Origin: Candidatus Dadabacteria bacterium
Lineage (GTDB): Bacteria; Desulfobacterota_D; UBA1144; Nemesobacterales; Nemesobacteraceae
DNA length: 64,000 nucleotides
Direction: 5' to 3'
Assembly: GCA_009840385.1 (NCBI GenBank)
Contig: VXNX01000001.1
Span: 62,001 to 126,000, forward strand
The notes beneath the pieces are model-generated. The model worked only from the letters and a program-made list of their open reading frames with translations. It searched no databases and was not told where the DNA came from. Shown here piece by piece: positions 53,793 through 57,013 of this stretch (positions are counted from its first letter, which is position 1; the number at the start of each line of letters is the position of its first letter). A program made the position numbers and the translations under genes.

Positions 53793-54881
53793 TCAGCGCA
53801 GATTCTTTTTCACAAGCGGAATAACTTCTTCCTTGAGCAGGCTCATTGATTTTTGCCACTTCTCCTTCGGGTTCCACTCATGCCCCATGGCCAGAAGTAC
53901 CCCGAATCCCCCGACGAATTCATGAAGCTCTATTATCTTTCTGGCAACATCCTCGGGGCTCCCTACAAGCCACAGGTTTTCGATCATGTAATCCATCGTC
54001 ACTTCCTGGTCTGACATTGACTTGTCAACCTTAAAAAGATTCAGATTGTCTCTTATCATGGGAACCAGCGTGAAAAAATAATCCCGGAAATCTCTTGCGA
54101 GCGTGCCCTCTATCACCTCTTTTCTCGCTTCCTCTGTGGTCTCCGCAACGTAGACATCCCTCGCGATCCTCCATTTTCCCCTCTCCGCCGTTCTGCCGGC
54201 AGCATCCGCCCCCTGCTCGTATCCCGCCCAGTGAGACTTCAGCACATCGCGGGTAACGAAGTTTATACTCATCGGTATCCAGTCCCGCTCCCCGGCGGTC
54301 CTGAGACTTGCGGAATTCTCCGAGATTCCCGCAACCGCTATGGGAGGATGGGGTTTCTGATATGGTTCCGTGTGCACTCCAAGACCAACTTTTTCCACGG
54401 GATCGGGAACCTTGAAACTCCACCGGGAGTTGCCGTAGGTGCCCGGTCTCGGATCGTTCCACAGATTCAGTATCATCTCGAGGGATTCGTTCATAAGCTG
54501 TCTCTGCTCTCCAGTTCTCGGGTTTATGCCGAATGCCTCAAAATCTCCGATGAAGCTCCCGGCTCCCACCCCCCAATAGAATCTTCCCTTAAGCAGGTGA
54601 TCGAGAACCGCGATTCTGTGCGCAAGCATGAAAGGATCATGCTGGGGCAGGCATGAAACACCCGTACCGAAGATTATCCGCTTCGTAAGGGCCGCAGCCT
54701 TGGCTATGAAGAGATCAGGGGCCGGTATGTTCTCCCAACCTGCGGTGAAATGCTCTCCTATCCAAGCTTCCCTGAAGCCTATTTCGTCGAGAAAGACCAT
54801 CTGCTCCATGTCCTCTTCGAGCGTTTCAGAAAGGGGGGAGCCGAACGGATGAAGGGGCATCGTGAAGTATCCAAGTTCCAT
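53793..54881 (-). CDS. LLM-class flavin-dependent monooxygenase
   Basis: This 362-residue protein belongs to the luciferase-like monooxygenase family: LGYFTMPLHPFGS start, EAWIGEHFTAGWENIPAPDLF, FGTGVSCLPQHDP, RFYWGVGAGSFIGDFEAFGI, and GISENSASLRTAGERDWIPM. It resembles limonene-monooxygenase-type and related flavin (FMNH2) oxidases. The substrate is unknown. It is a lone gene divergent from the thiolase-like gene, with a TATAAT only nine bases before its ATG and no ribosome site, so its message may be leaderless. Confidence 0.9.
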   Translation of the reverse strand: MELGYFTMPLHPFGSPLSETLEEDMEQMVFLDEIGFREAWIGEHFTAGWENIPAPDLFIAKAAALTKRIIFGTGVSCLPQHDPFMLAHRIAVLDHLLKGRFYWGVGAGSFIGDFEAFGINPRTGEQRQLMNESLEMILNLWNDPRPGTYGNSRWSFKVPDPVEKVGLGVHTEPYQKPHPPIAVAGISENSASLRTAGERDWIPMSINFVTRDVLKSHWAGYEQGADAAGRTAERGKWRIARDVYVAETTEEARKEVIEGTLARDFRDYFFTLVPMIRDNLNLFKVDKSMSDQEVTMDYMIENLWLVGSPEDVARKIIELHEFVGGFGVLLAMGHEWNPKEKWQKSMSLLKEEVIPLVKKNLR

Positions 54882-54896: not shown

Positions 54897-55025
54897 CTTT
54901 CTTTGAGCATAAAAAGAGAATAATTCGCGGAGAGTACTAAGACCGTATAGTCTGGCAATTCTGGGATGTATATAGTAATATGATACGGAATTTTTGAATG
55001 TTTTAAGTAAGGAGGAAGCACTACA

Positions 55026-56237
55026 ATGTCAGAGAATCTTCCGGGCATACAAGAGACCCGAGAACTTCTTAAGAAGAAAAAAGTGGTTATAGCCGGTGTG
55101 GGTGAAACGGAACAGGGAAAAATCCCGGACAAAAGCTCCTTTCACTTCCTGAGCGAAGCTTCAAAACTGGCCATCGAGGACGCGGGGATAGAAAAAGAGG
55201 ACGTTGACGGCCTCGTAACGGCATTCTCACTAGTGGAACACACCTTTATGCACTGCACCACGTTTGCAGACTACTTCGGCATGAACCCGAGGTTTTTCTC
55301 CTCCGTGGCAGTGGGGGGAGCGACAGCGGTGTGGATGGTAGCGGAAGCCGCGATGGCGATAGCGTCCGGACAGTCAGAAGTTGTGCTCTGCGTAAGGGGG
55401 GACAACACGCTGTCCGGGATATCGTCTTCGGGGATGCTTGCCCTTATAAGGGAGATGTGCCACGCTGAGTTTGAATTCCCCTATGGACTGACCACCCCTG
55501 GAGGATACGCCCTCGCGGCGCAGAGATACCTGCATGACTGGGGAGCCAGAAGAGAGCATCTGGCGGCTGTGGCAGTGACAATGAGAAAGCACGCCGCTGA
55601 CAAGGAGAACGCAATGAACAAGGATCCTCTCTCGATAGAGGACGTTCTTGGGTCAAGAGTCATAGCTGAACCCCTTACAAAGTATGACTGCTCCATTATC
55701 TCAGACGGAGGAGCCGCCTTCATAGTGACTACGGAGGACAAGGCTAAGGAGCTTGGAATAGAGAACGATCTCGCGTACCTGTGGGGAATGGGACAGGGAT
55801 ACTCACATCAGTACCTCACAACCCTCGAGAACCTTGATCAGATATACAACGCAGTTGAGAGATCGGGACAGAAGGCTTTCGGAACGGCGGGGATAGAGCC
55901 AAGTGACGTTGACATAGCGTTTCTTTATGATTGTTTCACCATAACAGTGCTCCTTGAGCTAGAGGGACTGGGTTTTGTTCCCAAGGGGGACGGAGGAGCG
56001 TTCGCGCTTGAGGGAAGAATGGAGATAGGAAAGGATCTTCCTGTTAACACCCACGGGGGACTCTTGAGTCAGGCACACCTCGGAGCAATGCACCATGTGG
56101 TTGAGGCTACGTTGCAGCTAAGGGGAGACGCGGGGAAGAGACAGGTGGAGGACCCTGAGGTTGCCGTGGTGCACGGAAACGGTGGGATAGTGTCTGCTCA
56201 CAGCACGGTGGTACTGGGCAACCAGCCGCTTAACTAA
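55026..56237 (+). CDS. Thiolase-like protein lacking the catalytic cysteines
   Basis: This 403-residue protein has the thiolase fold as in the lipid-transfer (SCP-x/Ltp) branch: SSVAVGGATAVWMVAEAAMA where true thiolases have a nucleophilic cysteine, LYDCFTITVLLELEGLGF, the VNTHGGLLSQAHLGAMH segment, and HGNGGIVSAHS where thiolases have a second catalytic cysteine. With both cysteines absent it should not act as a thiolase. Related Ltp proteins with DUF35 partners, such as Ltp2, are aldolases that cleave acyl-CoA side chains. A strong AAGGAGG precedes the ATG. The DUF35 gene follows by 21 bases. Confidence 0.85.
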   Translation: MSENLPGIQETRELLKKKKVVIAGVGETEQGKIPDKSSFHFLSEASKLAIEDAGIEKEDVDGLVTAFSLVEHTFMHCTTFADYFGMNPRFFSSVAVGGATAVWMVAEAAMAIASGQSEVVLCVRGDNTLSGISSSGMLALIREMCHAEFEFPYGLTTPGGYALAAQRYLHDWGARREHLAAVAVTMRKHAADKENAMNKDPLSIEDVLGSRVIAEPLTKYDCSIISDGGAAFIVTTEDKAKELGIENDLAYLWGMGQGYSHQYLTTLENLDQIYNAVERSGQKAFGTAGIEPSDVDIAFLYDCFTITVLLELEGLGFVPKGDGGAFALEGRMEIGKDLPVNTHGGLLSQAHLGAMHHVVEATLQLRGDAGKRQVEDPEVAVVHGNGGIVSAHSTVVLGNQPLN

Positions 56238-56258
56238 AACAAACCAAGGAGAACAGAG

Positions 56259-56684
56259 ATGTCTGAAGAGAAAAAAGAATACAACAAGCCGCTGCCTGAG
56301 TTCCGGCCGGAGACAAAGCCGTTTTGGGAAGCGGCGAAGGAGCACAGGCTGGTTATCCCGAGGTCCAGGGAGACAGGGGAGTTTTTCTTTTACCCCAGGG
56401 CTCTTTCCCCGGGAGGGGACATGAGCGAGGACATAGAGTGGGTGGAGAGCGAGGGACGGGGGAAAGTGTGGACTTTTTCCATACACCACATGGGACCGTC
56501 TAAAGCTTACAAGGGAGAGCCTCCCTACGTTGTGGCCCTTATCGAGATGGATGAGGGAGTGAAGATGATGTCCAACGTTGTGGATGTAGATCCCGCTGAC
56601 GTGTCCATCGGCATGGAAGTGCAGGTGGTGTTCGATGACGTTACCGATGAAGTCACCCTGCCTAAATTCAAACCAGCGGGGTAA
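56259..56684 (+). CDS. DUF35/OB-fold partner protein without zinc cysteines
   Basis: This 141-residue protein matches the DUF35 architecture of partners of thiolase-like proteins: an N-terminal helix (KPFWEAAKEHRLVI), a rubredoxin-like region (PRSRETGEFFFYPRALSPGG) and a C-terminal OB domain (WVESEGRGKVWTFSIHHM, YVVALIEMDEGVKMMSN). The zinc ribbon normally has four cysteines; here the protein has none, so metal binding is lost. AAGGAG precedes the ATG. With the upstream gene it probably forms a two-subunit enzyme. Confidence 0.88.
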   Translation: MSEEKKEYNKPLPEFRPETKPFWEAAKEHRLVIPRSRETGEFFFYPRALSPGGDMSEDIEWVESEGRGKVWTFSIHHMGPSKAYKGEPPYVVALIEMDEGVKMMSNVVDVDPADVSIGMEVQVVFDDVTDEVTLPKFKPAG

Positions 56685-56698
56685 AAAGGCGGGGGTCG

Positions 56699-57013
56699 TC
56701 AGTCATCGAGTTTTACAAGTATGTCGTCCCCGTCAATTTTTACCGGGTAAATCTCCAGAGGCTCAACCGCCGGAAGGCAGAGTACCTCGCCTGTTCTGAC
56801 GTTGAACTCGGCGCCGTGGTAGCAGCAGGTGATGCGCTCCCCGTCAAGGTCGCCGTCTGAAAGAGTAAAGCACTGGTGGGTACATTCATCCTTAAAAGCG
56901 TAAAAATTCCCCTCGACCCTGCATATAGCAATCGCTTCCCCGCCGACGAAAAAAGATTCCATTTCTCCTTCAGGTATGTCTGAGACTTCCGCTACTTTCT
57001 CGTAATCGGACAT
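56699..57013 (-). CDS. Rieske-type 2Fe-2S ferredoxin
   Basis: This 104-residue protein has both Rieske ligand pairs: C44-TH46 and C63-CYH66 (ITCCYHGAEFNVRTG). It resembles small soluble Rieske ferredoxins of the NirD/oxygenase-ferredoxin type and is probably cytoplasmic. An upstream in-frame start that overlaps sufD is rejected because the ATG at 57013 matches family N-termini (YEKVAEVSDIPEG). It is the last gene of the suf operon, four bases after sufD, and may be a client or an electron carrier of that system. Confidence 0.9.
   Translation of the reverse strand: MSDYEKVAEVSDIPEGEMESFFVGGEAIAICRVEGNFYAFKDECTHQCFTLSDGDLDGERITCCYHGAEFNVRTGEVLCLPAVEPLEIYPVKIDGDDILVKLDD

Follow-up and report, generated by a model that had tools for sequence, protein, structure and literature searches.

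A most likely retro-aldolase of the thiolase fold with a zinc-site-free DUF35 partner, present as a displaced second copy in Dadabacteria

The gene pair and its proposed function

Two adjacent genes in the window (the whole stretch of 64,000 nucleotides analyzed here, from Candidatus Dadabacteria assembly GCA_009840385.1, contig VXNX01000001.1, positions 62,001 to 126,000) encode a thiolase-like protein and a DUF35 partner (Table 1) which, judged from sequence, are most likely a retro-aldolase of the Sal/Ltp2 type and not a thiolase. The full reading, to which we give a probability of about 0.72, is that of a Sal/Ltp2/SLP-group retro-aldolase with a zinc-site-free DUF35 subunit, acting in a pathway of dehydrogenation, hydration and cleavage and present in a second, gene-converted copy; within it, the retro-aldol chemistry, its direction, complex formation and the role of dosage are what we infer. 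An acyl-CoA would be dehydrogenated by an acyl-CoA dehydrogenase, a MaoC hydratase would convert the product to a 3-hydroxyacyl-CoA, and the pair would cut this into a shortened acyl-CoA and an aldehyde or ketone. Following the mechanism proposed for CtSal, Tyr301 would be the base that deprotonates the 3-hydroxyl group and Cys303 would deliver a proton to the enolate, with His351 replacing Gln352, and the DUF35 subunit would keep its fold with the zinc site lost.

The pair shows high codon adaptation: among the 55 ORFs of the window with at least 140 aa (shadow ORFs included), the DUF35 gene ranks first and the putative aldolase gene sixth. Conservation within the order reaches 80–88% for the pair and 77–88% for SufB, and because this equals SufB across Dadabacteria, the pair probably does something central in this uncultured marine phylum.

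Table 1. Features of the gene pair and its flanks, in window coordinates
Feature	Coordinates	Strand	Basis
Thiolase-fold protein, proposed retro-aldolase, 403 aa	55026..56237	+	ORF, Pfam, fold matches
DUF35 partner, 141 aa, without cysteine	56259..56684	+	ORF, Pfam, model, best PDB match 9myr_B
Gly98 codon, thiolase nucleophilic Cys position	55317..55319	+	alignment; Gly likewise in CtSal (PMC12329534, excerpts)
Tyr301-Asp302-Cys303-Phe304 codons, proposed catalytic motif	55926..55937	+	alignment with 9myr_A
His351 codon, position of TcLtp2 Tyr344 and CtSal Gln352	56076..56078	+	alignments; near-invariant
Gly384 codon (HGNGG), C-terminal thiolase Cys position	56175..56177	+	alignment
Degenerate zinc-ribbon stretch, DUF35 residues 36-53	56364..56417	+	alignment with L058/L060
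99.94%-identity repeat with contig C10, same genome; proposed gene-conversion tract	54969..56687	+	sequence comparison
Luciferase-like flavin monooxygenase, flanking, outside the unit	53793..54881	-	Pfam; adjoins Rieske without the pair in G004
Rieske-type protein of suf cluster, other flank, outside the unit	56699..57013	-	Pfam

Catalytic residues and fold

Alignment with a cysteine thiolase places Gly98 (VGGATA) in the column of the nucleophile and Gly384 (HGNGG) in that of the C-terminal cysteine, in accordance with the original prediction, which had read GGA and HGNGG at the two catalytic positions. Neither of the cysteines that mark an SCP2-thiolase is present in any of the 30 distinct Dadabacteria-type sequences, and all 30 have glycine at position 98. 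All of them also carry Tyr-Asp-Cys, and the Tyr301-Asp302-Cys303-Phe304 of the window protein falls on the YDCY of CtSal (9myr_A), the dyad characteristic of Sal. The earlier description of the hallmark cysteines as lost is thus correct for the classical positions but incomplete as an account, since the aldolase-type Cys303 is kept (one of five cysteines in the protein). According to the excerpts of PMC12329534, on which everything cited here from that source rests, CtSal uses Tyr302 as catalytic base and Cys304 as acid with a glycine at the nucleophile position, Gln347 and Gln352 are said to activate Cys304, Gln161 is part of the proposed oxyanion hole, activity is abolished by Cys304Ser, and TbSLP carries the Sal-type motif as YDCF. 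Gln347, Gln352, Gln161 and Gly391 of CtSal align to Leu346, His351, Thr157 and Gly387, so that Leu346 and His351 stand where Sal has the two glutamines beside its cysteine; as far as alignment goes, the window protein keeps the Sal dyad without the residues said to tune it. Six more distant homologs were also aligned, four with YDC and two with YDS (a seventh row being a true cysteine thiolase). The closest relative outside the phylum, the Miltoncostaea aldolase, has YDSF, and given that the Cys304Ser variant of CtSal is dead, the Tyr-Cys dyad may not extend to the whole of this branch. The presence of Gly98 and Tyr-Asp-Cys in 30 of 30 sequences, together with a zinc motif missing from 36 of 38 DUF35 partners, is neither chance nor assembly error. 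That the protein is a carrier or scaffold without catalytic activity, which the old name "lipid-transfer protein" would suggest, is highly improbable: several subfamilies of that name are among the NCBIfam matches, none above its cut-off, whereas Tyr-Asp-Cys is invariant across the phylum and conservation equals that of SufB.

The predicted structure of the thiolase-like protein matches best Sal (9myr_A) and TbSLP (5ab6), with a Z of 33.6 each in VIA-align. Its mean pLDDT is 67.0 and falls below 50 in the active-site loop 343–351, for which reason no geometry was taken from it. The cysteine thiolases 7yvy and 6et9 trail these two by no more than about 1 Z, so fold alone leaves the function unsettled. 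The closest PDB entry in sequence is the Sphaerobacter thermophilus "thiolase" 4U4E (E 5.5e-78). The DUF35 model is better (pLDDT 84.7), and its top matches, the DUF35 of Sal-Shy (9myr_B, TMq 0.84) and 6ok1_B, are the two aldolase DUF35s. The likeness to Ltp-DUF35 aldolase complexes that had been suggested for the pair is borne out, in that for each of the two proteins the highest-ranking PDB entries are aldolase complexes or YDC(F/Y) proteins.

A thiolase using another cysteine, or a biosynthetic enzyme condensing in the aldol direction, is quite unlikely. Both Pfam (Thiolase_C_1, 175.1 bits against a cut-off of 28; Thiolase_N, 39.1 against 26.4) and NCBIfam name the product a thiolase, ordinary thiolases are close in fold as seen above, and sequence cannot tell the direction of the reaction; on the other hand, both classical positions lack the cysteine in all 30 sequences and we know of no thiolase that works without its nucleophile, and the dehydrogenase and two decarboxylase-like proteins of the module fit breakdown rather than synthesis.

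The zinc ribbon of DUF35

The DUF35 partner passes OB_ChsH2_C of Pfam (PF01796, 86.9 bits against a cut-off of 27.1) and, with 24.6 against 23.2, zf-ChsH2 (PF12172), the latter over profile positions 1–26 of 37 only. It contains no cysteine among its 141 residues, exactly as first noted, and hence none of the four zinc-binding cysteines of a DUF35 zinc ribbon; the stretch that reads CKKC...CPVC in the homologs L058 and L060 is SRET...SPGGD here (alignment A2). All DUF35 homologs compared in the excerpts of PMC12329534 bind zinc by four cysteines, the Cys3His1 site of Shy being the outlier; the zinc ribbon is given as part of the DUF35 family in the excerpts of PMC2954200, and neither set of excerpts was found to mention a zinc-free member. 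CxxC...CxxC is missing from 36 of the 38 distinct Dadabacteria-type DUF35 proteins (one of the 36 is truncated before the first knuckle), the two that have it (L021 and L040) both belonging to genus g14. Complete absence of cysteine is confined to 9 of the 38, the general feature being the missing zinc motif, and the proteins of the open-ocean family f8 retain one of the four cysteines. Going by these alignments, loss of the zinc ribbon is phylum-wide in Dadabacteria except in one genus. Among the 30 best-scoring Chloroflexota loci sampled, 25 have the motif and five do not, which makes the loss recurrent in the wider DUF35 family; the metal-free DUF35, proposed as a further step away from known complexes, is upheld as to the missing motif and is less singular than had been supposed. 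As to what the subunit does, the background section of PMC11321319 (excerpts) holds DUF35 to be not important for activity, in contrast with PMC12502768 (excerpts), where it is indispensable.

Two simple accounts of the zinc-less state were considered and rejected. A ribbon that was ancestral and lost once does not agree with the thiolase tree, which nests L021 and L040 among zinc-less proteins and so requires either a single regain or 6 independent losses. In the ribbon stretch L021 shares 43% identity with its neighbor L020, while the parts to its two sides share 79% and 87%, which fits replacement of the stretch or relaxed change; the L020 contig may be a contaminant (coverage 6.4, against 38.4 for L040 in the same bin). 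Genome-wide zinc sparing is not supported, as S14, L36 and S4 keep their cysteines in the window genome. Nor does ribosomal protein L33, which matched in 49 genomes and was read in 30 of these, follow the same distribution: in the genomes covered, L33 is cysteine-less in families f1, f2 and f7 and has the four-cysteine form in f3, f4, f5 and the single genome from f8, although f3 and f8 also have zinc-less DUF35 proteins.

A second DUF35 paralog (L025:6547-6954 on contig C13 of the same genome; L115-L134) was surveyed in a set of genomes from families f1, f3 and f8 and in G029. In these it is zinc-less in f1, in f3 except G036, and in f8, and has CxxC...CPxC in G029 and G036; of those cysteines the copy of the window genome retains one. 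Two DUF35 paralogs have thus lost the zinc motif in parallel.

The home operon

The usual surroundings of the pair were read from 31 loci outside the suf junction (hereafter home loci), the suf-type loci L026, L028, L029, L044, L046 and L071 and duplicate fetches having been left out beforehand. In all 31 the pair is followed, in the same orientation, by a MaoC hydratase gene. It matches PaaZ hydratase structures, keeps D-x-N-x-x-H, which we take to be the hydratase motif, and is in every locus a gene separate from DUF35, where Sal has a Cys3His1 DUF35 fused to MaoC. An acyl-CoA dehydrogenase gene lies upstream in 18 of the 31; none was found adjoining in the other 13, family f3 included, and in several of these 13 the stretch begins too near the pair to show one. 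No NCBIfam equivalog scored above its cut-off for this dehydrogenase, which therefore gives no hint of the substrate. An AmiS/UreI protein is encoded in 25 of the 31 loci (on the opposite strand in three of the 25), and 20 of the 31 stretches contain one or more ADC-like genes, a number of the others stopping before the possible position of such a gene; both assignments are above the Pfam cut-offs. Pro-Lys-Lys, presumably the lysine pair of the decarboxylase, is kept in both ADC-like proteins. A search for the ADC-like protein in Chloroflexota, run with no positive control, gave 0 of 151. The original prediction had looked to relatives for neighboring acyl-CoA enzymes, and the dehydrogenase and MaoC hydratase are indeed there. 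The suggestion that the neighboring flavin monooxygenase could act in the same catabolic route is not supported: the Rieske and monooxygenase genes of the same-genus genome G004 adjoin with no pair between them, and the usual home of the pair, in 31 loci, is another operon.

The neighborhood also bears on whether the pair is a decarboxylase or acyltransferase of the TbSLP/PhlC kind, its thiolase fold binding malonyl-CoA or an acyl donor and making or breaking a C–C bond without aldol chemistry, which we consider unlikely. PhlC-type complexes likewise contain DUF35 and match the model at Z 31, but PhlC is the partner of a second ketoacyl-synthase protein, and no such protein is encoded directly beside the pair. 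TbSLP has YDCF in common with the window protein, ties as best fold match and decarboxylates malonyl-CoA, although very slowly, yet it is itself argued to be an aldolase (PMC12329534, excerpts). The constant MaoC neighbor, moreover, would supply the 3-hydroxyacyl-CoA that an aldolase requires.

In family f3 the upstream neighbors are instead a ParA-like protein (by eye) and an HTH_36/DnaD_N protein (L034:3820-6050), a combination reminiscent of plasmid genes for partition and replication. One contig recorded as Ruegeria sp. (NZ_JALCBM010000108, L053) carries the module at 87% identity in the f3 gene order and is probably a mis-binned Dadabacteria contig.

The module on a plasmid outside the phylum

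Among 72,556 plasmid records, the best match to the pair is on NZ_CP064358.1 of Miltoncostaea oceani (Actinomycetota), which also holds the sole plasmid match to the ADC-like protein. Compared with 12 Dadabacteria stretches, its best identities are 63% for the acyl-CoA dehydrogenase, 54–56% for the aldolase, 53% for DUF35 (here too without cysteine), 54% for MaoC, and 52% and 54% for the ADC proteins. Of 24 other proteins of the plasmid, 20 have no match in the 12 stretches and four have weak ones (a canonical thiolase at 37%, Sir2 at 34%, an aldehyde dehydrogenase and an AMP-binding protein at 30% each). Six genes at 52–63% indicate that the set travels or persists together. The plasmid (L168) additionally has cofC, cofD, cofE, cofG and cofH of F420 synthesis and a TRAP transporter. 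Homologs at 42–46% on other plasmids, in Salipiger, Celeribacter, Achromobacter, Natrinema and Azospirillum adjoin MaoC genes, with an acyl-CoA dehydrogenase on the stretch in four of the five. Recurrence through the phylum and on one plasmid of an unrelated bacterium points to a breakdown pathway.

A more far-reaching proposal, possible but with the odds against it, is that the dehydrogenase, MaoC, Sal-like aldolase with metal-free DUF35, ADC-like pair and AmiS/UreI-type channel make up an undescribed catabolic route carried on plasmids between phyla. If so, the duplicated, near-identical aldolase pair, ADC pair and channel would mark a dosage-critical step; duplication of all of these near one locus is seen in full in one closed genome. 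One version, a guess, has the aldolase take the place of HMG-CoA lyase and split a 3-methyl-branched 3-hydroxyacyl-CoA, either 3-hydroxyisovaleryl-CoA or HMG-CoA, to acetone or acetoacetate, while the ADC pair and the channel would handle the small neutral product; this would tie aldolase, ADC and small-solute channel together. It fits the result that HMG-CoA lyase (NF004283) scored above cut-off in none of 57 Dadabacteria genomes, but with only 3 of 14 control genomes above it, such absence is common and proves nothing about the substrate.

A second copy and probable gene conversion

The window copy of the pair is a second, displaced copy and not the typical locus. The repeat listed in Table 1 differs by one mismatch in 1719 bases from its counterpart on contig C10, which sits between acyl-CoA dehydrogenase and MaoC genes. 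Both copies could be compared in four genomes, with identities of 99.9% (G000), 99.2% (G006), 94.5% (G010) and 98.9% (the CATOTB record) within a genome and 85.6–94.9% between genomes, and in all four the copies pair as sisters in the tree (support 0.98–1.0), each being closer to its paralog than to the syntenic orthologs. The flanking monooxygenase and SufD differ by 4–15% between species and identify the suf locus as the same in all four genomes. One duplication followed by repeated homogenization explains the sister copies, the alternative being four separate insertions at one junction. Long-lasting concerted evolution of prokaryotic duplicates has been linked to genes of one complex or pathway (PMC6053082, excerpts), and gene conversion probably keeps the second copy almost the same as that in the operon, for the sake of expression level.

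In the same-genus set of 13 genomes, the window's own included, G004 and G009 have one full copy each; in G001, G002, G003, G005, G008 and G012 the pair or pieces of it are confined to the ends of contigs, which is what a repeat would be expected to give, and the pair was not found in G007 and G011. The suf junction is without the pair in G004 and holds other genes in G009 (L201:5628-7085), a protein with HPFVDGNGR that we take to be Fic-like and two small ORFs that we take to be HicB/HicA-like. In G006, a closed genome, second copies of the ADC pair (2263 bp, 99.6%) and of the AmiS gene (629 bp, 96.2%) likewise lie close to the suf locus. The contig of the window ends at window coordinate 66481, aligned with the point where this second ADC pair of G006 stops; the assembly of the window genome yielded no ADC gene, and we infer for this genome a second ADC pair as in G006. 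The operon acyl-CoA dehydrogenase of G000 and G006 (L024:2328-3554 and L027) is 94.6% identical in DNA, against about 87.6–87.8% for the suf flanks, and the operon may have moved between species.

Comparison with known systems

Within the literature cited here (in excerpts), Sal and Ltp2 are the sole characterized retro-aldolases of the thiolase fold, both acting on steroids. Searches of the open-license literature found no paper on Dadabacteria together with thiolase, on any two of Dadabacteria, UBA1144 and acyl-CoA dehydrogenase, or on any four of ADC, AmiS, lipid-transfer protein, acyl-CoA dehydrogenase and MaoC; a paper on marine Dadabacteria (PMC8115339) has no passage on the six subjects sought in it, and the main text of PMC6053082 has no occurrence of thiolase or acyl-CoA.

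The system most alike is CtSal-CtShy (9MYR; PMC12329534, excerpts), a bile-acid aldolase that cleaves C5 steroid side chains, with the thiolase fold, glycine for the nucleophilic cysteine, Tyr-Asp-Cys, a DUF35 subunit and a neighboring hydratase. It differs in that DUF35 in the window is encoded on its own and lacks the Cys3His1 zinc, that Gln347/Gln352 are replaced by Leu/His, and that the window-type genes are linked to two ADC-like proteins and AmiS; of the two, CtSal is the one with a steroid context shown. TcLtp2-ChsH2 (6OK1) shares the overall fold, the first tyrosine of the YD motif, a DUF35 partner and the order of dehydrogenase, hydratase and aldolase steps, but the window protein has YDCF for YDHF and His351 for the second catalytic residue Tyr344, and its partner has lost the zinc motif. 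TbSLP, the SCP2-thiolase-like protein of Trypanosoma brucei (5AB4-5AB7), is similar in YDCF and fold and, unlike the window protein, is without a DUF35 partner (PMC12329534, excerpts). 4U4E likewise lacks the nucleophilic cysteine and differs in having YDSF.

The group described here keeps the catalytic Tyr-Cys yet drops the zinc that shapes the cleft of Sal, which makes it testable whether DUF35 zinc is a structural decoration or a setter of substrate range, and also whether thiolase-fold aldolases have non-steroid substrates. As with tuf and amoCAB (PMC6053082, excerpts), copies within a genome are closer than syntenic copies between species and several genes of a pathway are affected, and with the homogenized duplicates the few known examples of long-lived concerted evolution in prokaryotes gain a metabolic one.
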